Shown here: positions 2,847 through 30,153 of the stretch, in pieces
Numbering within the stretch: position 1 is the stretch's first letter
How the letters are laid out: every line of letters starts with the position of its first letter
NCBI GenBank assembly: GCA_001871115.1
Contig: MNUR01000056.1
Coordinates: 1 to 41,095 of the forward strand
Length of the DNA stretch: 41,095 bases
Source of the DNA: Elusimicrobia bacterium CG1_02_56_21
GTDB taxonomy: Bacteria; Elusimicrobiota; Elusimicrobia; Elusimicrobiales; UBA9959
Reading direction: 5' to 3'
The notes under the pieces: generated by a model
What the model saw: only the letters and a program-made list of their open reading frames with translations
Databases searched by the model: none
What the model was told of the DNA's origin: nothing
Position numbers and translations under genes: made by a program

Positions 2847-3842
2847 CTACCTGGTTGAAGTTATCTCGTAAACCAGCTGGCGCAGAACCAGTCCCGGTTC
2901 TCTTTTTGAGGAGGATTTCAGAAGCTCCTCCGCCTCAAGGCAGCGCCTGAGGGCGCGTAAAAGTTTTTCTTCCGTGTAGTTGCCCGCGTCCCGCAGGGCC
3001 GCGTGGTACTGGCCCGGGGACATCCCGGCCTGGTAGCAGGCCGCGGGGCCTTCCCCGGACAGCCGCTTTACCTTGAGCAGTCTCTCTACCGCTTTGGAAG
3101 TCTGGGCCAGCAGCGCCAGGGGTTCGGCGCCAAAAGCCAGCATCCTGGCCGCGGCCTCCGCGGCCCGGGCGGGGTTTTTTGAGCAGACCGCGTTAGAGAG
3201 CTCGAAGGGGTTCTGCGTTCGCGCGAAGCCGGCCAGCGCAAGCGCGTCGTCAGGGCCGAAAAATCTGTTCTGGCCGTGCATGTAGAGGATTATCTTCTCG
3301 GCTTCTCCGTCCAGCGTGACGGAATCCGTCCCAAGCAGTTCTACAAGAAGCTCCAGCGCTTCTCCGTCCGCCTTTACGCCCTTAGCGAGCAGCGCCGAGT
3401 TAAGATGTTCAACGGCCTGGTGCCCGGACATCGGGTCAAAATTCACCACGGCGGATTCCGGGCCGAGCGCGCCGGGGATCGGGTCCTGCTTCTCTCTGGG
3501 CCAGTCGGACAGTATAAGCAGGCAGGCGCTGGGGCAGGGGTCCGCAAGGTAAGCGAGCAGAGCCTTGAGCGGTTCCTTTTTAAGCTTCTCAACCCTTTTA
3601 AGCGCTACAAAGCGTATTTCTGCCAGCATAGGGGCCGTCTGGGCTTCATCGAGGGCCTGGGACAGGTCCGCGGTTTCGGCGTCCCGCACGGAAAAATTGA
3701 ACGCCTCGGGCCTGAAAACGCCTTCAAGGCGTTTGAGGGCGGCGTCTTTCAGCGCGGTTTCTTCGCCGCAGAGGTAATATACCGGCCGGGTTTTGTTTTT
3801 GGCCCATTCATCGGCCAGCGCTTTGGGGGTCAGGGTTTGCAT
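2847..3842 (-). CDS. holA: DNA polymerase III subunit delta
   Basis: Clamp-loader delta subunit, which opens the beta sliding clamp during replication. 331 residues, the usual length. The N-terminus (RPVYYLCGEETALKDAALKR) corresponds to the AAA+-like domain start of HolA, and the APMLAEIRFVALKRVEKLKK region matches the clamp-contacting part. The C-terminal third (ELSNAVCSKNPARAAEAAAR onwards) is the helical collar region. It sits 2 bases downstream of the lptE-like gene and after leuS, reproducing the well-known leuS-lptE-holA order of proteobacteria. Confidence 0.9.
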   Translation of the reverse strand: MQTLTPKALADEWAKNKTRPVYYLCGEETALKDAALKRLEGVFRPEAFNFSVRDAETADLSQALDEAQTAPMLAEIRFVALKRVEKLKKEPLKALLAYLADPCPSACLLILSDWPREKQDPIPGALGPESAVVNFDPMSGHQAVEHLNSALLAKGVKADGEALELLVELLGTDSVTLDGEAEKIILYMHGQNRFFGPDDALALAGFARTQNPFELSNAVCSKNPARAAEAAARMLAFGAEPLALLAQTSKAVERLLKVKRLSGEGPAACYQAGMSPGQYHAALRDAGNYTEEKLLRALRRCLEAEELLKSSSKREPGLVLRQLVYEITSTR

Positions 3843-3844
3843 GG

Positions 3845-4441
3845 TCAGGGGTTAGGGTTTACTCCTCCGGGCGGCTGCTTGTTGTCCTGCGCCCCGGGCA
3901 GCTTTTTCTGGGAGGCGCTGGATACCGAGCCGAAACCCGAGACCGTGCGCAGGACTACATCCTTGGCCAGTATTTCCCAGAGGGCCTCCCTGGCCTGTTC
4001 TTCGGTCAAACCGCCGGGCAGGTTGGCGGCGGAATACACCTTGGTTACCTGCAGGGCCGGCTCTTCCCAGAGGTAGCGGTTCTGTTCGCGGTCCAGCAGG
4101 CGGAGGCCGGCTATCACGTTAAGCTTGTATACCGTGGGCACCAGGTTCACGTCGTATTGGATAGGGGTGAGTATATAGTGGCTTATCTCTCCGACTATTA
4201 CTCCCTGCGCCGAGGCTTCCGGGGAAACCGCATATTCCCCGTTCTTCAGGAATTCGTCTATCACTTTCAGCGTGATTTTTTCTTCAAGCCCGAACTGCTG
4301 GGTCTTGTTGGCGAAAGGCCTTACGGCTATGCGCTTGATGTATATCGGAAGCTTCTGCTCGGCCGGGTTGTAGATTATATCCGAACTCGCAGAGCATCCT
4401 GCAAGGCCCATGACAGCGGTTATCAATATCAGTTTCTTCAT
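3845..4441 (-). CDS. lptE: LptE-like LPS-assembly lipoprotein
   Basis: Predicted outer-membrane lipoprotein that would plug the LptD barrel for lipopolysaccharide export. It begins MKKLILITAVMGLAGCSASS: a short positively charged N-terminus, a hydrophobic stretch and the lipobox LAGC with lipidation Cys16. The mature part (IYIKRIAVRPFANKTQQFGL, then ITLKVIDEFLKNGEY) shows the LptB-like/LptE fold pattern of a predicted secreted alpha/beta domain. The proline/glutamine-rich C-terminus is unstructured. The family assignment rests on this pattern plus the position between leuS and holA. Together with lgt in this window it supports a diderm envelope. Confidence 0.8.
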   Translation of the reverse strand: MKKLILITAVMGLAGCSASSDIIYNPAEQKLPIYIKRIAVRPFANKTQQFGLEEKITLKVIDEFLKNGEYAVSPEASAQGVIVGEISHYILTPIQYDVNLVPTVYKLNVIAGLRLLDREQNRYLWEEPALQVTKVYSAANLPGGLTEEQAREALWEILAKDVVLRTVSGFGSVSSASQKKLPGAQDNKQPPGGVNPNP

Positions 4442-10650: not shown

Positions 10651-11349
10651 TTAACTTATAGCGTCCATTATTTCCCGCAGGTCCCTGCCCAGGCACAGGA
10701 ACACCGGCTTGTCCACTACGGTGTAATTTTTGATGCGCTTCTGCCTCAGCTCCTGTGTTGCCGAGATGAGGTCTTCCATTGTGCGCGCTTCCCTGGCTAC
10801 TATTATCTCCTGGTCATCAAGGCCGTAGGAGAGGAAAAAATTCTCCTGTATTTCCTTGTAGCGGGTAAAGACCTGCCTCCGCTCCGTCAGAAGGGTTTCT
10901 CTTTCTTCCTCGGAGAGTTCGTACCAGGTATGCGCTTTTACCACGGGGTGAAGCAGCATGTAGCGGTAGCGGCCGAAAGTTTCTTTTGGCAGAAAGCCGA
11001 AATCCAGGTCTTTTTTCAGCTGGGCCGTTTCGGGACCGTGGTGCACTCCGAGGAAAGAGTGTACCGGGGTGAAATATTTCCCGGCTCCGGTGGAAAAGGT
11101 GCGCGCGCAGATTTCCTGCAGATAGGACAGGTCGTCCGACATGCGCCAGAAAAGCATGTCCGAATCGGAGCGCAGTCCTGAAACCATATAGGTGCGCAGG
11201 AATAGTTTCTCCTGGCAGGCGCCTACCATGTTCTCGAATTCCTGTTTGGCGGCTATCTTCTCGTTGGAAATCAGACGCCGGAATTCCGGCTGCAGCTTCA
11301 GGAACATGAAGCTGGAGTAAATATTAGAGCTTTTTTTTATCTTTTCCAT
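10651..11349 (-). CDS. Chlorite dismutase/HemQ-family protein lacking the usual haem histidine
   Basis: 232 residues with the Cld-family signature layout: FLRTYMVSGLRSDSDMLFWR (residues 50-69), then HPVVKAHTWYELSEEER and SYGLDDQEIIVARE, then NYTVVDKPVFLCL. In coproheme decarboxylases (HemQ) and chlorite dismutases an E-H pair before the conserved R-x-Y carries the proximal haem His. Here the aligned residue is Arg157 (TERRQVFTRY), so haem binding is doubtful. Some archaeal and Thermus family members are also considered non-haem. Start ATG at 11349 has GGAGG six bases upstream. It overlaps the 3' end of the preceding HlyD-like gene by 26 bases, indicating co-transcription with thyX. Function unknown. 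Confidence 0.7.
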   Translation of the reverse strand: MEKIKKSSNIYSSFMFLKLQPEFRRLISNEKIAAKQEFENMVGACQEKLFLRTYMVSGLRSDSDMLFWRMSDDLSYLQEICARTFSTGAGKYFTPVHSFLGVHHGPETAQLKKDLDFGFLPKETFGRYRYMLLHPVVKAHTWYELSEEERETLLTERRQVFTRYKEIQENFFLSYGLDDQEIIVAREARTMEDLISATQELRQKRIKNYTVVDKPVFLCLGRDLREIMDAIS

Positions 11350-12214
11350 TTTTCGCCTCCGCGGCGGGGAGGACCGGCTCCAGGTACATAGAGCTGTGTC
11401 CCAGTATCTCTATTTCTCCGGCGGTTTCCAATCCGGATTTAATCTCGGTTATCAGGAAGCGCCTGCCGTCGGATTCTATCACATGTCCGCGGGGTACAAG
11501 CATGGTGTTCTCGCTCTTGCCCACAAAGAGCGTTCCGTCGTACTGCTGGCCTATCTTTATCCCGTCTTTCAGGTCCAGCACTTCCATCCAAAGCCGGTAA
11601 ATAAGGGGGGCCCCTTTCAGGCTTACGAAGTTGACAAGGGTGGTGTCATACTTCTCGTCCGGGCTCCGCACATGTTCCACCTTTGCGTTCATCCCTGGCG
11701 CCAGTTTTGAATATAAAGGTTCGGTGTTCTTTCCTACTATCACCACCTTTTTAGCTATCGTGAAAAGGCGGTCCCCCCTGTTCACGCGGGTCCCGGGTTG
11801 TATGTAAATGTTGGTGACCATGCCCTGAGTCCCGGGCTTGATCTCTTTATAGCTGTAGACGTCCTGCCAGCGCCGTGCCGTCTGCTTGCGGGACTCCTCC
11901 GAGCTGGAGTCCAGCAGCGCAGCCATTTCCGTAGAGACCATGCGCGCCAGCAGGGTTTTAGGCGAGGCGAAGCTGAATATTTCCGCCTGCAGCTCCTCGA
12001 TGCGGCCGTCAAAAGGAGCGAAAATATCGTAGGTATCCTGGGCGGTGGTAATTCCCGTGACGGGGGTGTTGACTACTATGTCCCCGGTCTTTATCTGCTG
12101 TTGCCGAAGCCCTTCGCGGACGGGGGACTTCGTGATTCCGGTTCCGGCCGGGGCCGCCGCGTAAGCGGGGCAGGTCAGGAGAAGAGCCGCGCAGTTGAGC
12201 AGTATTCTTTTCAT
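11324..12214 (-). CDS. Secreted HlyD/RND-adaptor-like protein
   Basis: 296 residues from the ATG at 12214, beginning MKRILLNCAALLLTCPAYAA, a signal peptide. The mature protein has a barrel-sandwich (lipoyl-like) part in two halves: FAPFDGRIEELQAEIFSFAS and QGMVTNIYIQPGTRVNRGDR, the latter typical of membrane-fusion adaptors. A beta-barrel part follows, including LAPGMNAKVEH and GTLFVGKSENTMLVPRGHVI. The coiled-coil hairpin between the lipoyl halves is short. No inner-membrane transporter or TolC-like gene is adjacent, so the partner is unknown. The ATG overlaps the thyX stop (ATGA) and the 3' end overlaps the Cld-like gene. Confidence 0.65.
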   Translation of the reverse strand: MKRILLNCAALLLTCPAYAAAPAGTGITKSPVREGLRQQQIKTGDIVVNTPVTGITTAQDTYDIFAPFDGRIEELQAEIFSFASPKTLLARMVSTEMAALLDSSSEESRKQTARRWQDVYSYKEIKPGTQGMVTNIYIQPGTRVNRGDRLFTIAKKVVIVGKNTEPLYSKLAPGMNAKVEHVRSPDEKYDTTLVNFVSLKGAPLIYRLWMEVLDLKDGIKIGQQYDGTLFVGKSENTMLVPRGHVIESDGRRFLITEIKSGLETAGEIEILGHSSMYLEPVLPAAEAKNGKDKKKL

Positions 12215-20321: not shown

Positions 20322-21665
20322 ATGTCCGACTTCTCAGCTGAATTTAGCCGAAACCTGCGCAGCTCCGGAATAGTAGGAGCCGGCGGCGCGGGCTTTCCCT
20401 CCTATGTGAAAGCGCAGGGGAAGGCCGAATACGCGCTGGTGAACGCGGCCGAGTGCGAGCCCCTCCTTAAAAAAGACCAGAAGATCCTCGAATATTTCCC
20501 GGAAAAGGTTTTCAACGGGCTCGGCCTGCTGATGCGCGCCGTGGGCGCGAAGCGGGGCATAGTCGGCATAAAGAAGAAGCACGAGAAGCTCATCCCGCGC
20601 CTCGAGGAAATAGCGAAGGGCAGGAAGAACGTCTCCGTGCTGAAGATGGGGGACTATTATCCGGCCGGCGACGAGCAGTGCCTGGTCTACGAGGCCACCG
20701 GCCGCATAGTGCCGCCCGGGGGCCTCCCCCTGGAAGTCGGCTGCGTGGTCTGCAATGTGGAGACCCTCTATAACGCGGCTTTCCAGGGAAAGCCCGTCAC
20801 CGAAACTTTCGTGACGGTGAACGGCGCGGTGAAAAAGCCCGCCACTTTCCGGGTCCCCGTCGGGATCTCCTGGCGCGAGGCCGTGGAGCTTTGCGGCGGC
20901 TTCACTGTAAAGGACCCGGCCTATATAGACGGCGGGCCCATGATGGGCAAGGTCATGACCGATTTCGAGGCGCCGCTGGTGAAAGCCTCCGGCGGCATCG
21001 TGGTCCTCCCCAAAACACACCCCCTCATAGTTAAAAAGGCGCAGAGCCGGCCCGTGTTCACCCGCGTGGGGCGTTCGACCTGCGACCAGTGCTCCTTCTG
21101 CACCGAGTTCTGCCCGCGCTATTTGCTCGGCCATAACGTGCAGCCTCACCGGGTTATGCGCACCATGCTTTTTTCAGGCGGGCCGGAACACAAGCTGCAC
21201 AGCCAGTACGGCCTGCTCTGCTGCGAATGCTCGCTCTGCAGCCTGTACGCCTGCCCTGAAAATTTGAATCCCCGGGAAGCCTGCGTGGCGGCCAAGTCCG
21301 ATCTGCGCGAGCTAAAGACCGGCTTTAAGAATTCTTCCCTGAACACCGGGCGCGCTCCCCGGGTGCATCCCGTGCGCGATTTCCGCAAGGTCCCTGTTTC
21401 CAAACTGATAAAGCGCCTTGGCCTCGAGGATTACAACAGGGACGCTCCCTGGACCGACCTTTCCTACAAGCCTTCCAGGGTTAAAATTTTGATGAGCCAG
21501 CATATCGGCGTTCCCTGCAGCCCCGCCGTCAAAGAGGGGCAGCGGGTAGAGAAAGGCGCCGTGGTGGGGGACGTTCCCGCCGACAAACTGGGCTGCCCGG
21601 TGCACGCGAGCATCTCCGGCACCGTAGGCAAGGTCAACGAAAAATACGTGGAGATAATCGCTTAA
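20322..21665 (+). CDS. pduS: PduS-like (RnfC-type) iron-sulfur electron-transfer protein of a microcompartment
   Basis: 447 residues. The Rnf/Nqo1-like N-terminal part contains GAGGAGFPSYVK (residues 20-30), the nucleotide/flavin-binding glycine loop. Two cysteine clusters follow: C254-x2-C257-x2-C260-x3-C264 and C300-x2-C303-x2-C306-x4-C311, expected to hold two [4Fe-4S] clusters. The C-terminal part (GVPCSPAVKEGQRVEKGAVV onwards) is a barrel-sandwich-like domain. In PDU compartments PduS is a flavin/Fe-S NADH-linked reductase that docks to PduT. Here the PduT-like shell gene follows by 7 bases. No B12 enzyme is present, so the role is likely general electron export rather than cobalamin reduction. 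Confidence 0.85.
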   Translation: MSDFSAEFSRNLRSSGIVGAGGAGFPSYVKAQGKAEYALVNAAECEPLLKKDQKILEYFPEKVFNGLGLLMRAVGAKRGIVGIKKKHEKLIPRLEEIAKGRKNVSVLKMGDYYPAGDEQCLVYEATGRIVPPGGLPLEVGCVVCNVETLYNAAFQGKPVTETFVTVNGAVKKPATFRVPVGISWREAVELCGGFTVKDPAYIDGGPMMGKVMTDFEAPLVKASGGIVVLPKTHPLIVKKAQSRPVFTRVGRSTCDQCSFCTEFCPRYLLGHNVQPHRVMRTMLFSGGPEHKLHSQYGLLCCECSLCSLYACPENLNPREACVAAKSDLRELKTGFKNSSLNTGRAPRVHPVRDFRKVPVSKLIKRLGLEDYNRDAPWTDLSYKPSRVKILMSQHIGVPCSPAVKEGQRVEKGAVVGDVPADKLGCPVHASISGTVGKVNEKYVEIIA

Positions 21666-21672
21666 GGTTATT

Positions 21673-22221
21673 ATGTTAAACGCAATCGGCGGTGTCGAAC
21701 TCTCGAGCGTGGCCAAGGGCCTGGAAGCGGCCGACGCTATGCTGAAAACTTCCAGTATAAAATTGCTGCTTTCGCGCTCTATCTGCCCGGGCAAGTACAT
21801 AATACTGCTGGCCGGCAATGTCGGAGACGTGAACGCCGCGGTAGCGGCCGGCTCCGCCAAGGCCGCCCACGCGCTGGTGGACAGTTTTGTTATCCCGAAT
21901 ATCCATCCTGAAGTTTTTCCCGCCATCTCCGGAACTACCGTGGTGGAAGGTCTTGAGGCCCTCGGCATAATCGAGGCTTTCTCCGTCTCTGCCCTGGTGG
22001 AGGCCGCCGACGCCGCCGTAAAGGCCGCGCCGGTGAAGCTCCTGGAGATCCGCCTGGCCATGGCCCTCGGAGGAAAAGCCTTCGTCACCATGACCGGCTC
22101 CGTCGCCGCCGCCGAAACCGCCGTGGCCGCCGGCGCCGCCGTAGTAGCCAAAAAAGGCCTGCTGGTGGAAAAAGTAGTCATCCCCCAGCCCCGACAGGAA
22201 CTCCTGCGGGAGATAATCTAG
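21673..22221 (+). CDS. pduT: BMC-T shell protein, PduT-like with cluster-binding Cys38
   Basis: 182 residues, two BMC domains in tandem forming a pseudohexameric trimer. Domain 1 begins AIGGVELSSVAKGLEAADAM. The pore loop carries SRSICPGKY with Cys38, the same position and motif as the residue that binds the central [4Fe-4S] cluster in Salmonella PduT. Domain 2 begins [21 protein letters not shown] and has ALGGKAFVTMTG. The C-terminus LVEKVVIPQPRQELL is typical of PduT. Adjacent to the PduS-like gene, so the pair can form an electron conduit across the shell. Confidence 0.9.
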   Translation: MLNAIGGVELSSVAKGLEAADAMLKTSSIKLLLSRSICPGKYIILLAGNVGDVNAAVAAGSAKAAHALVDSFVIPNIHPEVFPAISGTTVVEGLEALGIIEAFSVSALVEAADAAVKAAPVKLLEIRLAMALGGKAFVTMTGSVAAAETAVAAGAAVVAKKGLLVEKVVIPQPRQELLREII

Positions 22222-22234
22222 TTTCTAATAAGCC

Positions 22235-22278
22235 TTGACAATCTTTAGGGGGCAATGTATACTCAATGTAGATACATT
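22235..22278 (+). promoter_or_regulatory. Strong mazEF promoter with operator-like inverted repeat
   Basis: TTGACA (22235-22240), 17-base spacer, TATACT (22258-22263): near-perfect consensus. An inverted repeat AATGTAT (22254-22260) / ATACATT (22272-22278) covers the -10, and an additional direct AATGTA lies at 22265-22270. This fits autoregulation by the MazE antitoxin or the MazEF complex. Confidence 0.75.
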
Positions 22279-22289
22279 TGGAGGGCGTT

Positions 22290-22532
22290 ATGACAACTAT
22301 AGTTCAAAAATGGGGAAATAGCCTGGCGCTGCGTATTCCAAGCGCGCTGGCCAAGGATATTCATTTGCACCAGGGCTCCCTGGTGGATATGGCTATCGTG
22401 GAAGGCGAGATGATTGTAAAGCCCCAAAAAAGATCCAAGCTCTCTCTCGCGCAGATGCTCAAGGGTATCACTAAGAGTAATCGTCATTCCGAGCAGAATA
22501 ACGAAGGCCCTGCCGGCCGGGAAATATTCTAA
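22290..22532 (+). CDS. mazE: MazE-like antitoxin (AbrB-fold)
   Basis: 80 residues from the ATG at 22290 (GGAGGG upstream). The SpoVT/AbrB-type DNA-binding motif is clear: TTIVQKWGNSLALRIPSALA, followed by LVDMAIVEGEMIVKPQ. The C-terminal tail, after about residue 50, is the part expected to bind the toxin. Its stop codon shares one base with the mazF start (TAATG). It lies between a BMC-T and tpiA and has its own promoter. Confidence 0.88.
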   Translation: MTTIVQKWGNSLALRIPSALAKDIHLHQGSLVDMAIVEGEMIVKPQKRSKLSLAQMLKGITKSNRHSEQNNEGPAGREIF

Positions 22533-22873
22533 TGCCCCAGCCCTATTGCCCGAAGCGGGGCGATGTGGTCTGGCTGTCGTTTGCGCCTCAGGCTGGGCAT
22601 GAGCAGGCGGGTCACAGACTTGCTTTGACCCTCTCTCCCGAAGCCTATAACCGGAAAGCGGGCCTCGCCCTCTTCTGCCCCATCACTTCGCAAGTAAAAG
22701 GCTATCCATTCGAAGTCCCTCTTCCCTCCGGCCTTAAAGCTTCCGGTGTCATCCTGTCCGATCAGGTCAAAAGTCTCGATTGGCAAGCCAGGAACTCTCA
22801 GTTCTGCTGCAGGATTCCAAGCGCGACTTTCTCCGAAGTATTAAAGAAACTCAGTGTCTTGCTGGACGATTAA
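22532..22873 (+). CDS. mazF: MazF/PemK-family endoribonuclease toxin
   Basis: 113 residues. The product begins MPQPYCPKRGDVVWLSFAPQ and continues AGHEQAGHRLALTLSPEAYN, the MazF signature (G-D-v-v-w-l-x-F-x-P-q-x-G-x-E-q). The next strand GLALFCPITSQVKGYPFEVP is typical of the family, as is ILSDQVKSLDWQAR. MazF cleaves mRNA at short motifs until neutralised by MazE. A 10-bp palindrome AACAATTGTT overlaps the stop codon (22872-22881). The pair appears to be an insert in the BMC locus. Confidence 0.9.
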   Translation: MPQPYCPKRGDVVWLSFAPQAGHEQAGHRLALTLSPEAYNRKAGLALFCPITSQVKGYPFEVPLPSGLKASGVILSDQVKSLDWQARNSQFCCRIPSATFSEVLKKLSVLLDD

Positions 22874-23054: not shown

Positions 23055-23834
23055 ATGGCTTCGAATAAACGGGTACCGATGATAGCCGGGAACTGGAAGA
23101 TGCACCTCAATTCTAAGGAGGCCGCGGATCTGGCCGCCGCCATTAAGAAAGGGCTCGATCCCGATCTTAAGCATGAGGTACTCCTCGCCCCCGGCTTTAC
23201 CTGCCTTCACGCCGTCAAGGCCGCGCTGGCCGGTTCCAAAATTTTCCTTTCCTCGCAGGACGTGGCCTGGGAGGAGAAAGGCGCTTTCACCGGGGCCGTT
23301 TCCCCGTCGCAGCTCATCGACGCGGGCTGCACCCACGCGATCATAGGCCATTCCGAGCGGCGCAAGATATTTCTTGAGACCGACGAGGTTGTAAACCGCA
23401 AGATGAAAGCCGCCATAAAGGCCGGCCTTGTGCCCGTGCTCTGTATCGGCGAAACCCTTGAGGAGCGCGAGAACCAGAAAACCTACCGCGTCCTTGAGAC
23501 CCAGCTTAACGGAGCTTTCGCGGGCATCACCGCAGCCGAGGCCGCGAAGGTCGTCATAGCCTACGAGCCCGTCTGGGCCATCGGCACCGGTAAAACCGCC
23601 ACCCCCGACCAGGCCCAGGACGCGCACGTTTTCGTGCGCAAGCAGATGGAACGCATTTACGGCAAGCCATATGCCGAGGCTGTGCGGTTGCTTTACGGCG
23701 GCTCCGTGAAGGCCGACAACGTGGATGAACTGATGGCTCAGCCCGACATCGACGGCGCGCTGGTGGGCGGGGAAAGCCTCAAAGCAGACAAGTTCCTGCG
23801 CGTGATACATTTCCAGGCGGTGCTGAGCAGATAA
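23055..23834 (+). CDS. tpiA: Triose-phosphate isomerase
   Basis: Interconverts glyceraldehyde-3-phosphate and dihydroxyacetone phosphate. 259 residues. Active-site residues are intact: Asn13 and Lys15 in MIAGNWKMHLN, His99 in IIGHSERRKIF, Glu171 in AYEPVWAIGTGKTATPDQAQ, and the phosphate-binding LLYGGSVKADN with GALVGGESLK. The N-terminus (MASNKRVPM) shows no encapsulation peptide, so a cytosolic location is likely. Its place 3 bases before pduL suggests that it handles glyceraldehyde-3-phosphate released by the DeoC of the same locus. TPI is normally found with other glycolytic genes. Confidence 0.96.
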   Translation: MASNKRVPMIAGNWKMHLNSKEAADLAAAIKKGLDPDLKHEVLLAPGFTCLHAVKAALAGSKIFLSSQDVAWEEKGAFTGAVSPSQLIDAGCTHAIIGHSERRKIFLETDEVVNRKMKAAIKAGLVPVLCIGETLEERENQKTYRVLETQLNGAFAGITAAEAAKVVIAYEPVWAIGTGKTATPDQAQDAHVFVRKQMERIYGKPYAEAVRLLYGGSVKADNVDELMAQPDIDGALVGGESLKADKFLRVIHFQAVLSR

Positions 23835-23837
23835 GCC

Positions 23838-24470
23838 ATGGACGAGAAGCTCCTGAAAGAGATACTCGAGGACCTGAAGCTCCGGCAGGAGCGTTCCGAT
23901 CTGCCCGTGCCGGTGGGCATTTCCAACCGGCACGTGCACCTGACCAAAGAAGATTTCAAGACCCTCTTCGGAGCCGACTCCGACGACACGCAGCTCAAGG
24001 CGGTGAAGCAGCCAGGCCAGTACGCCTGCAACGAGCGGGTAGCGGTAGAGGGGCCCAAAGGTTCCCTTAAAGACGTCCGGATGATAGGGCCGTACCGGAA
24101 ATACAGCCAGGTGGAGGTGTCGCTGGGCGACGCGCGCCGCCTGGGCATGGAGCCGCCGATCCGGGACTCCGGCAAGCTGGACAATTCCCCGGGCATCAGG
24201 CTCACGGGGCCGAAAGGCTCGGTCACTATAAAGCAAGGCTTGATCCTCTCAAAGCGGCATATCCATTTCAACGTCAGGGAAGGCGCGGCGTACAAGGTCA
24301 GGGACGGCCAGGAAGTGCGCGTGCTCTGCGGCCGCGGCACGGAGCGCGAGACCATTTACGAGCGCGTGCTCTGCCGCGTTTCCGACGCTTACTCGCTGGA
24401 ACTCCACCTGGACGTGGAAGAAGCCAACGCCGCCGGGCTCAGGAACGGGGACGCGACTTTCATAGTCTGA
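23838..24470 (+). CDS. pduL: PduL-type phosphate acyltransferase
   Basis: Converts acyl-CoA (here probably acetyl-CoA) and phosphate to acyl phosphate and CoA, recycling CoA inside the compartment. 210 residues. Residues 1-17 (MDEKLLKEILEDLKLRQ) form a short amphipathic helix, a likely encapsulation peptide, followed by the PduL core. Metal-binding His residues are in NRHVHLTKEDF (32-34) and KRHIHFNVREG (141-143), and RMIGPYRKYSQVEVSLGDAR matches the family. It starts 3 bases after tpiA without a clear Shine-Dalgarno, consistent with coupling. Confidence 0.92.
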   Translation: MDEKLLKEILEDLKLRQERSDLPVPVGISNRHVHLTKEDFKTLFGADSDDTQLKAVKQPGQYACNERVAVEGPKGSLKDVRMIGPYRKYSQVEVSLGDARRLGMEPPIRDSGKLDNSPGIRLTGPKGSVTIKQGLILSKRHIHFNVREGAAYKVRDGQEVRVLCGRGTERETIYERVLCRVSDAYSLELHLDVEEANAAGLRNGDATFIV

Positions 24471-24510: not shown

Positions 24511-24795
24511 ATGGACGCACTTGGAATGATAGAGACGAAGGGCCTTGTGGCCTGCGTGGAAGCGGCCGACGCCGCAGTGAAAGCCGCCAATGTCAAGATC
24601 GTAGGTTATGAAAAGATAGGCTCAGGTCTTGTGACCATACTTTTCCGCGGTGAAGTCGCCGCCTGCCGCGCCGCCTGCGACGCCGGCGCCGCCGCCGCCC
24701 AGAAAGTGGGAGAGCTTGTGAGCGTGCACGTGATACCGCAGCCCCACGGCGACCTGGAAGGCAAGCTGCCGATAAGCGAGAACAAGAAGAAATAG
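24511..24795 (+). CDS. BMC-H shell hexamer protein (PduA/EutM type)
   Basis: 94 residues, single BMC domain. It begins [20 protein letters not shown]; the pore-lining loop KIGSG is at residues 35-39, and the family strand [20 protein letters not shown] follows. The C-terminal [14 protein letters not shown] matches PduA/PduJ-type hexamers. The KIGSG pore is that of PduA/EutM-like shell proteins that pass small polar metabolites. AGGAGG lies just upstream of the ATG. Confidence 0.93.
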
Positions 24796-24892: not shown

Positions 24893-24901
24893 GGAGGTTT
24901 T

Positions 24902-25207
24902 ATGCTTTTTGCAAGAGTAGTGGGTAATGTGGTCTGCACCCGCAAGGACGATAAACTTGTGGGGACCAAGCTTTTGATGGTGCAGCCGGTGGGCCTCGAC
25001 GACAAGCCCCGCGGCAATACGCTCGTCGGCATCGACGCGGTCGGCGCCGGCACGGGCGAGCTGGTCCTGCTTGTTCAGGGTTCCAGCGCGCGGCAGACTT
25101 CTAAAACCGAGAATACCCCGGTGGACTGCACCATTTTCGCCATAGTGGACACGATAGAGAAAGAAGGCAAAGTGGTGTTTAAAAAATCCGCAGACAAGAT
25201 GCAATAG
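24902..25207 (+). CDS. BMC-P (EutN/CcmL) vertex protein 1
   Basis: 101 residues from the ATG at 24902 (GGAGG seven bases upstream). It begins MLFARVVGNVVCTRKDDKLV and continues GTKLLMVQPVG, the EutN/CcmL OB-fold signature, with VGIDAVGAGTGELVLLVQGS in the central strand. These pentamers cap the vertices of the polyhedral shell. Three copies occur in this locus (with 27774-28073 and 28129-28416). Confidence 0.93.
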   Translation: MLFARVVGNVVCTRKDDKLVGTKLLMVQPVGLDDKPRGNTLVGIDAVGAGTGELVLLVQGSSARQTSKTENTPVDCTIFAIVDTIEKEGKVVFKKSADKMQ

Positions 25208-25218
25208 AGGGAGCGCAC

Positions 25219-26634
25219 ATGTCTCTCAGTGAAGAAGAATTAACTAAAATAGTGGCCGAGGTCGTCAGGAACCTCGCGCCGCAGGCCGAAGCCGCCGCGG
25301 CCGCCTCCCCGGGCGGGCCGGTGTTCGACACCGTCAACGAGGCCGTGGCCGCCGCGAAGAAGGCGCAGCCCGGCTTCCAGGACCTGGGCCTGGCGGCGCG
25401 CGAAAAAATAATCGCCGCCATACGGGAAGTTTCCCGCGGCAATGCCAGGCGCTGGGCGGAAATGGCCGTAGCCGAGACCGGCATGGGCCGCGTAGAAGAC
25501 AAGGTCGTCAAGAACCTGGTCTGTATCGACGGGACCCCCGGGGTGGAAGACCTGCGCGCCGTGTCCTATACCGGAGATAAAGGCCTGACGCTCGTGGAGT
25601 ACGCGCCTTTCGGGGTAGTGGCGGCGATCACCCCCTCGACTAATGCCGTGGCCACCATAATCAGCAATGCCATAGGGATTTTAGCCGCCGGCAATTCAGT
25701 GGTCTTCTCGCCGCACCCGGCCGCCAAGGGCTGCGTGGCCGACGCCGTGCGGTTGCTCGATAAAGCGATAGTCGCCGCCGGGGGCCCCGCCAATTTGGTC
25801 TGCACCATGGGCAAGCCAACGCAGGAAGTGACCAAACAGCTTTTGTCCCACCCGGACACCAATATGAACATCGTGACCGGCGGCCCGGCCATAGTTAAGG
25901 TCGCCATGACCTCGGGCAAGCCCTGCAAGACCATAGCCGCCGGCCCCGGCAACCCGCCCGTGGTGGTGGACGAGACCGCCGTCTTCCCGGACTGCGCCAG
26001 GGAAATAATTTTCGGCTGCGGCTTTGATAATAATGTGCTTTGCATAGCGGAGAAGGAAGTTATAGTCGTAGAGGCGGCCCGCGCGCGCTTCCTGGAAGCC
26101 ATGCGCTCCGATCCGCGCGCTTACGAGCTCAGCCGCGCCCAGATGGACCAGCTTTCAAAACTGGCCATCCTGGAGCCGGGCCGGGAGCCCAAGGTGAACC
26201 GCGACTTTATCGGCAAGAACCCGTCGGTAATAGCCAGGTCCATCGGCTTGAACCTTTCCGACGACATCCGCGTGCTCTGGGCGGAAGTGCCCAACGACCA
26301 TCCCTTCGTGGTGAGCGAGCAGCTGATGCCGGTGCTGCCGGTCACTTTCTGCAGGGACATAGATTCGGCTATAGAGCTGGCGCGCTTCGCGGAAGGGGAA
26401 AACCACCATTCGGCGGGCCTGTATTCCACGAATGTGAAGAACATGACCAGGATGGGACGCCGTATGGCCTGCTCCATATTCGTAAAGAACGGCTGCACCC
26501 TGAACGGTCTTGGAATGGGAGAAGGCTACGCCTCCATGTCCATCGGCACGCCTACCGGCGACGGGATAACCAAGACCAGTCATTTCGTGCGGCCTCTTCA
26601 ATGCAGCGTAGTCGGAGACCTCAGGATAGCGTAA
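25219..26634 (+). CDS. CoA-acylating aldehyde dehydrogenase (PduP/EutE type)
   Basis: Oxidises an aldehyde, most likely acetaldehyde from DeoC, to acyl-CoA with NAD+ and CoA. 471 residues. Residues 1-20 (MSLSEEELTKIVAEVVRNLA) form an encapsulation peptide, followed by an alanine/proline linker to about residue 34. The domain contains TPSTNAVATIISNAIGILAAGNSVVFSPHP, the nucleotide-binding region, and the catalytic cysteine Cys275 in GCGFDNNVLCIAEKEVIVVE. The C-terminal part has GLGMGEGYASMSIGTPTGDG, typical of EutE/PduP. It is downstream of BMC-P1 and followed by a repeat arm. Confidence 0.94.
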   Translation: MSLSEEELTKIVAEVVRNLAPQAEAAAAASPGGPVFDTVNEAVAAAKKAQPGFQDLGLAAREKIIAAIREVSRGNARRWAEMAVAETGMGRVEDKVVKNLVCIDGTPGVEDLRAVSYTGDKGLTLVEYAPFGVVAAITPSTNAVATIISNAIGILAAGNSVVFSPHPAAKGCVADAVRLLDKAIVAAGGPANLVCTMGKPTQEVTKQLLSHPDTNMNIVTGGPAIVKVAMTSGKPCKTIAAGPGNPPVVVDETAVFPDCAREIIFGCGFDNNVLCIAEKEVIVVEAARARFLEAMRSDPRAYELSRAQMDQLSKLAILEPGREPKVNRDFIGKNPSVIARSIGLNLSDDIRVLWAEVPNDHPFVVSEQLMPVLPVTFCRDIDSAIELARFAEGENHHSAGLYSTNVKNMTRMGRRMACSIFVKNGCTLNGLGMGEGYASMSIGTPTGDGITKTSHFVRPLQCSVVGDLRIA

Positions 26635-26697: not shown

Positions 26698-27246
26698 ATG
26701 CAGGCAAATATAGCGCTGGGACTTGTTGAAACTTCGTCGATAGCCAGGGGGATAGAAACCCTGGACGCAATGTGCAAAGCCGCCGGAGTAAAGCCGGAAG
26801 TGCACCAGGCTATTTCCAAAGGGAAATATATCATAGTCATTTCCGGCCCGCTGGGCGAGGTTGAGTCCTCGCTGGCCAAAGGCGTGGAGATAGGGGGAGA
26901 CGCCGTCATAGCGCACCATATTATCCGCAACGTTCACTCCGGCGCGCTGGCCGCCCTGAATAAAAAGGTTAAGGCGGTTAAAATAGAGGCCGTGGGCATC
27001 GTGGAAACAAAAGAAGCGCTGCCCGCGCTTTTCGCCGCGGACGCCGCGGCCAAAGCCGCTTTCGTGCATGTTTCGGAAGTGAACACCGGCAAAGGCATAG
27101 GCGGCAAGGGCTACTTTACGGTTACCGGAGAGCCGGGCGCGGTGCGCACCGCGGTAACCGCCGGCGTAAAGGCCGTCGGAGAGGACGCCGTCGTCAGCCG
27201 TATAGTGATCCCCAACGCGCACGAGCATATCGGCGCGGCGATATAG
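26698..27246 (+). CDS. BMC-T shell protein 2 (no cluster cysteine)
   Basis: 182 residues with two BMC domains: domain 1 ALGLVETSSIARGIETLDAM and domain 2 AVGIVETKEALPALFAADAA. The size and layout are close to the PduT-like protein at 21673-22221, but the pore loop reads AISKGKY where the other has SICPGKY, so the cluster-binding cysteine is absent and the pore should be a metabolite channel or structural. The C-terminus is SRIVIPNAHEHIG. AGGAG lies upstream of the ATG. Confidence 0.9.
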   Translation: MQANIALGLVETSSIARGIETLDAMCKAAGVKPEVHQAISKGKYIIVISGPLGEVESSLAKGVEIGGDAVIAHHIIRNVHSGALAALNKKVKAVKIEAVGIVETKEALPALFAADAAAKAAFVHVSEVNTGKGIGGKGYFTVTGEPGAVRTAVTAGVKAVGEDAVVSRIVIPNAHEHIGAAI

Positions 27247-27255
27247 GAGCTTTTT

Positions 27256-27702
27256 ATGAGACTTGTAATTGGAGCGGACCACGCGGGTTTTGAAGCCAAG
27301 GAAAAACTAAAAAAGTTCCTTCAGGGCCTGGGGCACGAGGTTTCGGATTTCGGCTGCTACTCTACGGACCCGGTGGATTTTCCCGACGTAGCCCTGCTGG
27401 TGGGGGAAGCGGTGCGGAAGAAAGAATTTGACAGGGCCGTCCTGGTGGACGGCTTTAACGGGGCCATGCCGTTAGCCGCCAATAAGCTGGCCGGGATACG
27501 GGCCGTGGCCGCTTACGATATTATTTCGGCGCGTTTCGCCGCGGCGCATGAGGACTGCAATGTGCTCTGCCTCGGAGGCAAGACGCACGGAGAGCTGGCC
27601 CTGCAGGAAATGCTTAAGGTCTGGCTGAACACCCCTTTTGAGGGTGGCAAGTACCAGAAGCGCCTGGATAAAATAACCGCGATAGAGCAGCGCTGCTGTT
27701 AG
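27256..27702 (+). CDS. RpiB/LacAB-family sugar-phosphate isomerase with altered active site
   Basis: 148 residues of the RpiB fold: IGADHAGFEAKEKLK (Asp8-His9), DFPDVALLVGEAVRKKEFD, HEDCNVLCLGGKTHG, and FEGGKYQKRLDKI near the end. In E. coli RpiB the catalytic loop is C-G-T-G-I-G-M-S-I-A-A-N-K. Here it reads DGFNGAMPLAANK, with Asp65 at the catalytic Cys place and the glycine pattern changed. His98 (AHEDCN) is retained. Because of these changes ordinary ribose-5-phosphate isomerase activity is uncertain. RpiB-like proteins are recurrent in sugar-phosphate-utilising microcompartments. No N-terminal encapsulation peptide is seen. Confidence 0.85.
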   Translation: MRLVIGADHAGFEAKEKLKKFLQGLGHEVSDFGCYSTDPVDFPDVALLVGEAVRKKEFDRAVLVDGFNGAMPLAANKLAGIRAVAAYDIISARFAAAHEDCNVLCLGGKTHGELALQEMLKVWLNTPFEGGKYQKRLDKITAIEQRCC

Positions 27703-27773: not shown

Positions 27774-28073
27774 ATGAAACAGGCAAAGGTCATTGGAAGG
27801 GTTTTTTGCTCGCAGCAGTGCTGCGGCATGGAAAGCAAGACCCTGCTTCTGATACAGCCTCTTGACTGGGAAACCGACAAGCCGGCGGGAGAGCCTCTCG
27901 TGGCGGCGGACACCGTGGGCGCCGGTTCCGGGGAAACCGTTTTTTTCGTGGCTTCGCGCGAGGCCATCCTGGCCTTTGAGGGCTGGGAGGGAGAAACCGC
28001 CGTTAACGCGCCCCCTCCCCCGGTAGACGCGGCGATAGTCGGCATCATAGACGGCAAGACCATAAAGGTTTGA
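27774..28073 (+). CDS. BMC-P (EutN/CcmL) vertex protein 2
   Basis: 99 residues. MKQAKVIGRVFCSQQCCGME and SKTLLLIQPLDWETDKPAGE follow the EutN/CcmL pattern, with VAADTVGAGSGETVFFVASR in the central strand and a proline-run APPPPVDAAIVGIID before the last strand. Three cysteines (CSQQCC) near the first loop are unusual for the family. The gene is bracketed by two mutually complementary repeat arms. Confidence 0.9.
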   Translation: MKQAKVIGRVFCSQQCCGMESKTLLLIQPLDWETDKPAGEPLVAADTVGAGSGETVFFVASREAILAFEGWEGETAVNAPPPPVDAAIVGIIDGKTIKV

Positions 28074-28128: not shown

Positions 28129-28416
28129 ATGTTCATAGCTAAAGTTATAGGAAACGTCTGGGCCACCCGCAAGCACCCGGGACTTAAGGGGGCTACAATG
28201 CTGATAGTTAAAGCCATGGACCCCATGGACGGGAATAAGCTGGTCGGACAGGCTACACTCGCCCTCGACGGCAACCAGGGAGCGGGGCCGGGCGACACCG
28301 TGCTTATTGTAGACGAAGGCGGCTCCGCCAGGAAGATTTTGAAGAGTCCTAAAGCGCCGGTGCGCACCGTAATAGCCGGGATAGTGGACAAAGTGCATAT
28401 TACAGGGAAGGAATAA
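28129..28416 (+). CDS. BMC-P (EutN/CcmL) vertex protein 3
   Basis: 95 residues: [20 protein letters not shown] then [20 protein letters not shown], with [20 protein letters not shown] and a final strand [15 protein letters not shown]. It is the family member closest to consensus in its first strand. The region immediately upstream is a repeat arm and offers no Shine-Dalgarno; translation may depend on coupling or on the AT-rich leader. The stop is 2 bases before deoC. Confidence 0.92.
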
Positions 28417-28418
28417 AA

Positions 28419-29426
28419 ATGAACGACGAAGATATAAAGAAAATAGCGGCCGAGGTGGCCAGGATCCTTAGGGAAAAGGGAGCCTCTTTCCCCAGGCAGA
28501 CCCTCGGAGATTCGGTTTCTACAGGGTCCTCCGGCAAGGTTTTTCAAAGCCCGCTGGTAAAGCCCGCAGGCAGCTATGGAATACATAGCGCGCCCGCCGC
28601 GGCCCCGGCCAAGCAGTGTTCCGGCCAGGGCGATTGCCGCCTGGAAGAGAACACCTGCAGTTCCTCCTGCCAGAGCTGCAACCCTCTTACTAATTACACT
28701 GCCCAGCAGGTTAAGGCCAGCGTGGACCGCGTCAGCTTCTGCAATCCCAACGAGGCCAGCAATTCTATAGCCGGTATGATAGACCATACCCTGCTTAAGG
28801 CTAACGCCACCCAGGAAGAGATAGGCAAACTCTGCGAGGAAGCCCGCAAGTACCGTTTTGCCTCCGTCTGCGTGAATCCCGGTTATGTGGCCATGTCCGC
28901 CCGCCTGCTGCGCGGCTCCTCCGTCAAGGTCTGCACCGTTATCGGTTTTCCGCTGGGTTCCACCACGCCTACGGTAAAGGCGATAGAAGCCCGTGACGCA
29001 ATAGCCAACGGGGCGGACGAGATTGACATGGTGATAAATATAGGCGCGCTTAAATCCGGCAATGACCAACTGGTGCAGGACGATATAAAAGCCGTGAGGG
29101 AAGCCACCCGCGGCAAATGCCTCAAAGTGATACTTGAGACTTCCTACCTTACCAAGGACGAGAAGCTGCGCGCCTGCAGGATGGCCAAGGTCGCACAGGC
29201 CGATTTTGTGAAAACCTCCACCGGCTTCGGCTCCGGCGGCGCTACTCCGGAAGACATAGCGCTGATGCGCGAGACGGTAGGCCCCGGGATGGGAGTGAAG
29301 GCTTCCGGCGGCATCAAGAACGCGGAGGCGGCAGCGGCAATGATAAAGGCCGGCGCCAACAGGCTCGGGACCAGCGCCAGCATTGCTATAGTTTCCGGCG
29401 GCGAGGCCGCCAAGGGGCAGTACTAA
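28419..29426 (+). CDS. deoC: Deoxyribose-phosphate aldolase with encapsulation peptide and Cys-rich linker
   Basis: Cleaves 2-deoxyribose-5-phosphate to acetaldehyde and glyceraldehyde-3-phosphate. 335 residues, about 80-110 longer than common DeoC. Residues 1-21 ([20 protein letters not shown]) form an encapsulation peptide nearly matching that of the aldehyde dehydrogenase. A linker of about 95 residues follows, with C67, C73, C80, C84, C87 and C108 (C-x5-C-x6-C-x3-C-x2-C-x20-C). The TIM barrel starts near residue 118 (MIDHTLLK). The catalytic residues are Asp203 in [11 protein letters not shown], Schiff-base Lys265 in [16 protein letters not shown], and Lys294 in GVKASGGIK. It is the signature enzyme of the locus and the source of the aldehyde for the compartment. 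Confidence 0.93.
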
Positions 29427-29528: not shown

Positions 29529-29825
29529 ATGTCAGAAGCAAAAGAAGCGTTAGGGATGATAGAAACCAAGGGTTTTATAGGCATGATAGAGGCCTCTGAC
29601 GCCATGAGCAAGGCGGCCAGGGTGCGCCTGCTCGGCTATGAAAAGATAGGTTCGGGCTATGTCACCACGCTGTGCTGCGGCGAGGTCGGCGCGGTGCGCG
29701 CGGCTGTAGAAGCCGGCGCGGCGGCTGCCCAGAAGGCCGGTGAGCTGGTAGGGATGCATGTCATTCCCCGTCCTTCCGACGACCTGGATAAATATCTCGC
29801 GAAGATATCCGTAAAAGTCAGCTAA
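29529..29825 (+). CDS. BMC-H shell hexamer protein 2
   Basis: 98 residues. [20 protein letters not shown] starts the BMC domain, the pore loop KIGSG is at residues 39-43, and [20 protein letters not shown] follows. Compared with BMC-H1 it has a five-residue N-terminal extension and a Cys-Cys pair (residues 49-50) at the strand after the pore. The C-terminus is [20 protein letters not shown] is 5-10 bases upstream of the ATG. Confidence 0.93.
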
Positions 29826-29907: not shown

Positions 29908-30153
29908 ATGCTTACAAAAGGCGCGGTAGAGGACCTTATCATGCAGCACCTGTCCCGGCGCGGGCAGGGAGCAGCCGCGCCTGCGCCCGGGAAAGTTCCG
30001 GAACTCAGAAAAAGAATATTCCTGAGCGACTATGAGCTGAAGCGGAAGTTCGTTCCCGGTTCCAGGTCAATAAAGGTTCCCGCCAATTCTATTATCAGCC
30101 CGCTGGCGCTTGATTGGATAGAATTTAACGGGATACTCCTCATAGAGGATTGA
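29908..30153 (+). CDS. Small BMC-associated protein (putative lumen protein)
   Basis: 81 residues. MLTKGAVEDLIMQHLSRRGQ is a predicted amphipathic helix like an encapsulation peptide, then an Ala/Pro/Gly linker (GAAAPAPGKVPE), then KRIFLSDYELKRKFVPGSRS and IKVPANSIISPLALDWIEFN. The last segment resembles the small domain seen at the N-terminus of EutT-type adenosyltransferases and in other BMC-associated proteins (a V-P-x-x-A-I-x-x-P-L-A-x-D-x-x pattern). No catalytic residues are identifiable. It lies 82 bases after BMC-H2 in a spacer with an inverted repeat (CCGGGCG/CGCCCGG). Function unknown. Confidence 0.6.
   Translation: MLTKGAVEDLIMQHLSRRGQGAAAPAPGKVPELRKRIFLSDYELKRKFVPGSRSIKVPANSIISPLALDWIEFNGILLIED

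Follow-up and report, generated by a model that had tools for sequence, protein, structure and literature searches.

An RpiB-like protein with aspartate in place of the catalytic cysteine in SPU-type microcompartment loci of Elusimicrobiota and Planctomycetota

Microcompartment loci of the SPU type, as defined by Axen 2014 (PMC4207490) and Sutter 2021 (PMC8217296), carry a PF02502 protein that both papers describe as an RpiB-type ribose-5-phosphate isomerase. The locus studied here raises the question of what such a protein does once the Cys on which RpiB catalysis depends has been replaced. The passages on this protein in Axen 2014 and Sutter 2021 make no mention of a lost Cys, and the listings and passages returned by our searches of open-licence PMC texts contained no mention of an Asp-for-Cys substitution. 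The stretch of DNA that we analyzed, referred to below as the window, is 41,095 nucleotides long and comes from Elusimicrobia bacterium CG1_02_56_21 (contig MNUR01000056.1); its nearest named loci are those of Elusimicrobiota. As in SPU microcompartments, shell genes stand together with genes for a DeoC-type aldolase, a PF02502 protein, an aldehyde dehydrogenase, PduL, and triose-phosphate isomerase. The features are as follows.

20322 to 21665, + strand: PduS/RnfC-like electron-transfer protein (RnfC-type models, under their cut-offs; PduS is our own label)
21673 to 22221, + strand: BMC-T shell protein (PduT-like model, under its cut-off)
23055 to 23834, + strand: triose-phosphate isomerase (TIGR00419, 189.2 bits; cut-off, 130.6)
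23838 to 24470, + strand: PduL-type phosphotransacylase (NF011652, 237.4 bits; cut-off, 209)
24511 to 24795, + strand: BMC-H shell protein (PF00936)
24896 to 25207, + strand: BMC-P shell protein (PF03319)
25219 to 26634, + strand: aldehyde dehydrogenase of the microcompartment type (NF011927, 569.9 bits; cut-off, 403)
26698 to 27246, + strand: BMC-T shell protein, immediately upstream of the RpiB-like gene (PF00936, two stretches)
27256 to 27702, + strand: Asp-type RpiB-like protein P0001, 148 amino acids (intact ORF, PF02502, predicted structure)
27448 to 27486, + strand: codons 65 to 77 of P0001, the rewritten loop DGFNGAMPLAANK (Asp65 at the position of the catalytic Cys, Phe67 at the Ser/Thr position of Cys-type enzymes)
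27774 to 28073, + strand: BMC-P shell protein (CcmL/EutN models, under their cut-offs)
28129 to 28416, + strand: BMC-P shell protein (translation and matches to planctomycete BMC-P genes)
28419 to 29426, + strand: DeoC, deoxyribose-phosphate aldolase with an N-terminal extension of about 115 amino acids (TIGR00126, 291.1 bits over residues 117 to 325; cut-off, 117.3; PF01791)
29529 to 29825, + strand: BMC-H shell protein (EutM/CcmO models, under their cut-offs)
29908 to 30153, + strand: 81-amino-acid orphan protein (hhalign and HMM homology to the N-terminal domain of planctomycete Asp-type RpiB proteins)

Between the upstream BMC-T gene and the triose-phosphate isomerase gene lies a MazE/MazF-like pair, so labeled from the translations (22278 to 22532 and 22532 to 22873, + strand). 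Such a pair is also present in locus L010, and a MazE-like gene alone is present in L003, L021, and L043.

P0001 matches PF02502 with 146 bits (cut-off, 24.7). Its predicted structure (pLDDT, 97.0) superimposes on Clostridium thermocellum RpiB (3he8_A) at 0.7 Å, residues 1 to 148 on 1 to 148 (Z score, 28.7; 37% identity); with respect to the fold, which is all that this comparison covers (no dimer or ligand), P0001 is an RpiB without insertion. A phmmer alignment places Asp65 at Cys65 of C. thermocellum RpiB and Cys66 of E. coli RpiB. A preliminary description of this DNA had proposed that Asp replaces the catalytic Cys in an RpiB-like protein, and the ORF, the alignment, and the structure overlay all bear this out. 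It had further described the glycine loop as rewritten relative to that of E. coli. The loop of P0001 (VDGFNGAMPLAANK), which occupies the site of the catalytic-Cys loop of RpiB enzymes, is indeed rewritten, but the E. coli loop with which it should be compared is CGTGVGISIAANK, according to the PDB sequence, and not CGTGIGMSIAANK. P0001 resembles the RpiB enzymes (EC 5.3.1.6) of E. coli, C. thermocellum (3he8), and T. cruzi in fold and length and in having Asp8, His9, Asp41, His98, Arg136, and Glu144; positions 132 and 133 are Lys and Tyr. It differs from them in having Asp for Cys, Phe67 two residues after the base position where RpiB has Ser or Thr, a changed glycine loop, and Glu99 for Asn.

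Profile scores and overall identity were poor guides to the active-site state. P0001 exceeded the cut-off of the NCBIfam subfamily model NF004051 (140.5 versus 135 bits) and fell short of that of the TIGR01120 equivalog (130.0 versus 138.65 bits). This shortfall carries no weight, because the Cys enzyme of the same genome (L001) also misses the cut-off narrowly, with 138.3 bits, and three of the four Asp types scanned (L183, L178, and L140) pass it. We therefore rejected the TIGR01120 cut-off as a means of telling Asp types from Cys types. Identity to C. thermocellum RpiB was rejected for the same purpose, being 58% for the Asp type L183 and 48% for a Cys type; the 48 to 53% identity that Axen 2014 gives for SPU proteins (PMC4207490) likewise does not distinguish Asp types from Cys types in other phyla. 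We did not file P0001 as an RpiB enzyme, because the two defining active-site features, the Cys and Ser/Thr67, fail.

We scanned a genome-contig collection with P0001 and obtained 60 loci (L003 to L062). All of the 54 closest (L003 to L056) encode Asp65 and Phe67 in a loop of the form D-G-F-[N/G]-G-[A/G] and have shell and/or aldolase neighbors, which argues that Asp65 is not a sequencing slip. With Asp in 54/54 close loci and in 117 distinct sequences overall, chance or artefact was rejected as its source. The other six loci (L057 to L062) encode Cys and have no shell or aldolase neighbors detectable with the window proteins. Among 30 short loci (L104 to L133), 28 have shell or aldolase neighbors; none was found for the Asp types L125 and L133, whose loci span 2.7 and 3.4 kb.

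An Asp type (>190 bits) is present in 42 of 198 Elusimicrobiota genomes, and all 42 have a second RpiB match. A scan of relatives gave a similar picture: 35 of 61 genomes have an Asp type, and a second RpiB match is present in 34 of these, all but G008, which is 84% complete. In 30 of the 42 genomes, including that of the window, no other RpiB gene lies less than 1.5 kb from the Asp gene; the Cys-type RpiB of the window's genome, L001 (loop CGSGVGACVAANK), lies on a separate contig. The remaining 12 genomes (L134 to L145) have Asp and Cys types in tandem in the same operon, with Asp-type loops IDGTGGAM or IDGTGGGM (nine), IDGFGGA (two), and IDSFGGA (one). In these 12 genomes, the Asp type was more conserved than its Cys neighbor in 66 of 66 genome pairs (mean identity, 0.709 versus 0.531), indicating that the Asp type is under strong selection and is not decaying. 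Two SPU operons, L146 and L148, contain the Cys type only, and no further RpiB match was found in either genome. Unlinked Cys enzymes fall mostly in another clade than the tandem Cys types. In one Elusimicrobiota locus, L156, two unlinked Cys-type RpiB genes are adjacent (2891 to 3286 and 3600 to 4040), and one of the loops ends in AANT rather than AANK. RpiA was considered as a back-up isomerase and rejected, since it was not found in any of 41 Elusimicrobiota genomes, of which 36 carry an Asp type, in a search whose control was positive in 8 of 14 known genomes. The Cys-type RpiB is thus the only ordinary ribose-5-phosphate isomerase recognized there.

Searches seeded with Asp types also identified SPU-like loci in Planctomycetota, in which DeoC accompanies shell genes. 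Of 392 planctomycete genomes searched, 148 scored over the cut, and 76 loci were read, giving 75 distinct RpiB proteins. The 76 comprise the search returns and 40 loci picked further down the listing; the seeding favors Asp types in number but is independent of their neighbors. Among the loci read, all 39 Asp types adjoin shell and/or DeoC genes, versus none of the 36 Cys types, a split with a chance probability of 1/C(75,36) = 3e-22 if sequence relatedness is ignored. The planctomycete Asp loop has the form D-[G/A]-[A/V/M/I]-G-[I/V/L]-[G/A]-[S/G], so that the Gly-Ile-Gly glycine loop is nearly kept.

Of the 39 planctomycete Asp types, 36 are extended at the N terminus by a segment that a single domain HMM recognizes. 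This extension seems to consist of a short helix and then a small domain, and it has the look of a targeting segment. This domain is homologous to the 81-amino-acid orphan of the window (29908 to 30153), which has no match in Pfam or NCBIfam (hhalign probability, 97.8%; E value, 1.1e-12; HMM matches in both directions). Because homologues of the orphan are fused upstream of the RpiB core in L178, L183, L184, and other planctomycete loci, the separate orphan and RpiB-like protein of the window may cooperate. Twenty of the planctomycete loci extend 470 bases or more past DeoC. In eight of them (L303, at 10664 to 11647, L306, L309, L311, L313, L320, L321, and L323), the gene immediately after DeoC encodes a nucleoside phosphorylase; none was found next to DeoC in the other 12. 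Three of these phosphorylases were scanned and were nearest to uridine phosphorylase, under its cut-off.

We counted active-site residues over distinct sequences from Elusimicrobiota, Planctomycetota, viral contigs, and other sources and over Lactococcus LacA and LacB. Residue 65 is Asp in 78 and Cys in 42 Elusimicrobiota proteins, Asp in 39 and Cys in 37 planctomycete proteins, and Cys in all of the distinct proteins from viral contigs (56) and from other sources (13). Counted by locus, the RpiB genes on IMG/VR contigs, which are putatively viral, all encode Cys (86/86; L096 to L103 and L222 to L299). LacA has Asp at this position and LacB has Cys; LacA is the only aligned RpiB outside the Asp clade that is without Cys. 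Two small phyla reached by the searches have Cys types only, with no shell or aldolase neighbors in the short loci read. In one of them, reached via L059 and L061, the loop is CKSGIGMSITANK, with Lys after the Cys and a triose-phosphate isomerase gene nearby (L175, L176, L187, and L188).

All 79 Cys types from Elusimicrobiota and Planctomycetota have Ser/Thr67, but it has been lost in 108 of 117 Asp types: it is kept in none of the 39 planctomycete and in 9 of the 78 Elusimicrobiota sequences, where it is always Thr and always in tandem operons. Elsewhere, residue 67 of the Asp types is mostly Phe in Elusimicrobiota and Ala, Val, Met, or Ile in Planctomycetota. The DGT loop forms belong to tandem operons; the Phe67 forms occur in all 54 window-type loci and in three of the tandem operons. 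At position 99, every planctomycete Asp type has Asn, whereas the 78 Elusimicrobiota Asp types all have an acidic residue, Glu or Asp; Elusimicrobiota Cys types have Asn (23) or Asp (19). The rewritten glycine loop is a feature of the Elusimicrobiota Asp types and separate from the Asp-for-Cys change. In contrast to these positions, Asp8, His9, Asp41, and His98 are kept in 117/117 Asp types, as the preliminary description had noted for Asp8-His9 and His98 of P0001; His98 is absent from 4 of the 42 Elusimicrobiota Cys types. This conservation argues for a working site.

The mechanism passages of PMC4783025 indicate what these residues do in characterized RpiB enzymes (trypanosomatid and E. coli). 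The Cys takes the C2 proton, a Thr shuttles a proton between O2 and O1, and the ring is opened by His102 (His98 here), which protonates the ring oxygen; the C69S, C69A, and D45N mutants are dead, Asp45 corresponding to Asp41 here. Mutants of LacAB fit this picture: Cys65, Asp8, and His9 are indispensable in the LacB subunit, and there is a 25-fold effect at His96 of LacA (PMC3755991). In the Asp types, by comparison of sequences, substitutions affect the residues that act on C2-H and O2 and spare those for ring opening and phosphate binding. We concluded that the Asp types very probably form a distinct RpiB-fold subfamily, linked to the SPU microcompartment and with Asp in place of the catalytic Cys, in Elusimicrobiota and Planctomycetota. 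The claim is for these two phyla only. Altered chemistry in the SPU compartment, as the preliminary description suggested, is likely, but the change is clade-wide in two phyla and not the peculiarity of a single protein and its loop.

The preliminary description had also proposed a phylogeny of RpiB-like proteins. When the loop columns were removed, 30 Elusimicrobiota Asp types still formed one clade (support, 96/99), in a tree that left out eight long rows (both Lac rows, L062, L094, L095, L162, L169, and L172); an artefact of the loop columns was rejected as the cause of the Asp/Cys split. A larger tree, built from 103 chosen rows, placed the Elusimicrobiota Asp types in one clade and the planctomycete Asp types in one clade of their own (100/100 and 97/96, respectively). 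A single joint Asp clade was not rejected (p-AU, 0.731; likelihood higher by 8.68). The Asp types therefore make one clade per phylum, and both one and two origins of the Asp state are compatible with the trees.

Two known groups resemble the Asp types at the base position. LacA, of galactose-6-phosphate isomerase, has Asp in place of Cys followed by x-aromatic, and the Lactococcus LacA loop, DAYGAGPFMVATK, comes part of the way to that of P0001; the preliminary description had made the presence of the same loop in a characterized RpiB an argument against its reading. The lacA-lacB arrangement likewise resembles the 12 tandem pairs. However, LacA has Leu instead of His9 and functions together with LacB, whereas the Asp types keep His9 and mostly have no Cys neighbor. 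P0001 is 30% identical to LacA and scored under both equivalog cut-offs (82.3 versus 164 and 61 versus 181.1 bits); with His9 also retained, membership in LacA was rejected. The second group is actinobacterial RpiB (TIGR02133), which, like P0001, has no Cys at the base position and in which a carboxylate may serve. The preliminary description's statement that the mycobacterial enzymes use a Glu elsewhere in the loop agrees with PMC4783025; in Mycobacterium tuberculosis it is Glu75. That carboxylate comes later in the loop, unlike the one at position 65 of P0001, and P0001 scored 113 bits against a TIGR02133 cut-off of 168.2. Residues 65 to 77 of P0001 contain no Glu, so a mycobacterial-type Glu base was rejected; the position of Glu75 is presumably the one that holds Met in P0001, judging from an alignment to the mycobacterial loop.

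The gene next to the Asp type suggests a substrate. 2-Deoxyribose-5-phosphate (dR5P), the substrate of DeoC, has no C2 hydroxyl and hence cannot undergo aldose-ketose isomerization. With no O2 to act on, a Cys to abstract the C2 proton and a Ser/Thr to carry a proton between O2 and O1 could be dispensable. We tentatively propose, from the residues kept and lost, that the Asp type is no longer an ordinary RpiB and that it may open the dR5P ring or present the open form to DeoC. It would act in the compartment and bind the closed furanose, with His9 and Arg/Lys132-Arg136 holding the phosphate; His98 and Asp8, both retained, would open the ring, and the open-chain aldehyde would be released or presented to DeoC for formation of the Schiff base. 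Loss of the Cys and Ser/Thr67 would also stop turnover of ribose-5-phosphate. About 99.8% of dR5P exists as the furanose, and it is the open-chain form that the aldolase requires (PMC5975929). A functional analogue is YhcH, the N-acetylneuraminate aldolase anomerase, a dedicated opener that supplies the open form to the aldolase NanA (PMC8141875); it belongs to an unrelated family (DUF386, a metalloprotein), so the likeness is one of proposed role only. The pattern of residues lost and kept, the score of the window's aldolase above the DeoC equivalog cut-off, the nucleoside phosphorylase after DeoC in 8/20 planctomycete loci, the targeting-like extension, and the conservation of the Asp type in 66/66 genome pairs are all consistent with ring opening. 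To our knowledge, no protein dedicated to opening a sugar phosphate for an aldolase has been described before.

Several observations count against this proposal. Phosphorylation speeds spontaneous ring opening (40 to 100 s-1 for ribose-5-phosphate), so that dR5P opens fast on its own and is not expected to limit DeoC (PMC5975929); an opener might pay only where aldolase sites outnumber substrate, for example, in a crowded compartment. Thr67 persists in nine of the 78 Elusimicrobiota Asp types. Planctomycete Asp types retain both the Gly-Ile-Gly anion hole and Asn99, for which a pure ring-opener would have no obvious need. The Cys-only operons L146 and L148 indicate that the Asp type is not indispensable, a point that ring opening would itself explain, because a Cys enzyme also opens rings and could stand in. 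The source of dR5P is a further difficulty. DeoB was considered and was over its cut-off in 14 of 35 genomes, with 0 of 12 Asp-only, 6 of 7 tandem, 2 of 2 Cys-only SPU, and 6 of 14 other genomes. The window's genome is not among the 14 and has a divergent phosphopentomutase-like protein under the DeoB cut-offs (L300, 1288 to 2541, on contig C97). In addition, 12/20 planctomycete loci show no nucleoside phosphorylase beside DeoC.

Nearly as likely as ring opening, and likewise well short of established, is that the Asp type is still a ketol isomerase that interconverts an aldose and a ketose phosphate in the compartment, whether ribose-5-phosphate or another sugar, with Asp65 as a new general base in the manner of Glu75 of M. 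tuberculosis RpiB. A carboxylate base has this precedent in the family (PMC4783025), the RpiB fold and all four invariant residues are in place, and a normal-looking isomerase sits at the same operon position in L146 and L148. The same nine Thr67 sequences and the same planctomycete glycines and Asn99 that trouble ring opening fit an isomerase, as does the closeness of L183 to ordinary RpiB. Loss of Ser/Thr67 in 108/117 sequences speaks against it, as do the dead Cys-to-Ser and Cys-to-Ala variants of known enzymes (PMC4783025), and none of the characterized isomerases that we encountered has an acid at position 65. Since all Asp-type genomes (42/42) have a further RpiB match, another ribose-5-phosphate isomerase would moreover be redundant, and no other substrate is indicated. 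A partner-subunit role, in which the Asp type forms a LacA-like heteromer with a Cys-type RpiB, contributes half-site residues, and has a silent Asp site of its own, appears unlikely. LacAB has one ligand-bound site per LacA-LacB pair, the one with the LacB Cys (PMC3755991), and the Asp of LacA, the neighboring genes in 12/42 genomes, and a second RpiB match in nearly all Asp-type genomes (34/35; 42/42) fit such a pairing. Complementary decay is absent, however: LacA has lost His9 and LacB His98, whereas the Asp types keep Asp8, His9, and His98, and their tandem Cys partners keep the Cys, Ser/Thr67, and the flanking motifs. No LacB-type Cys partner gene is found within the window, as in the other genomes (30/42 in all) without a nearby second RpiB; most of the unlinked Cys enzymes fall outside the clade of the tandem ones; genomes in which RpiA is not found need a Cys RpiB in any case; and the Cys partners evolve faster than the Asp types.

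A non-catalytic role, as a phosphosugar sensor, a buffer, or a scaffold that organizes the compartment core, is more improbable still. Loss of the catalytic base and the planctomycete fusion to a small domain and helix would suit it, but the ring-opening and phosphate-contact residues are fully conserved among the sequences read, and a Cys enzyme occupies the same place in two operons. Least probable is an ordinary RpiB with a tolerated substitution that acts as a standard ribose-5-phosphate isomerase. The NF004051 score of P0001 and the TIGR01120 scores of L183, L178, and L140 point that way, while the shortfall of P0001 against TIGR01120 (130 versus 138.65 bits), shared by L001 (138.3), says little on the other side; against it, the Cys is essential in characterized enzymes (PMC4783025 and PMC3755991) and is present in 86/86 viral-contig loci.

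The broadest form of the ring-opening proposal goes further and is correspondingly doubtful: an RpiB fold turned into an organelle dR5P opener that feeds DeoC would be the true second signature enzyme of SPU loci in at least two phyla, its N-terminal targeting domain fused to it in planctomycetes and separate, as the 81-amino-acid protein, in Elusimicrobiota. If isomerase chemistry has indeed disappeared from the second SPU signature enzyme in two or more phyla, the reading that RpiB isomerizes ribose-5-phosphate needs revision there, and the job assigned to the SPU RpiB-like protein may be wrong. Automatic annotation hides the difference between Asp and Cys types, three of the four scanned Asp types passing the RpiB equivalog cut-off. 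Two positions, 65 and 67, separate the organelle copies from the housekeeping copies and offer a sharp handle on the substrate and chemistry of the organelle that can be tested with small soluble proteins.
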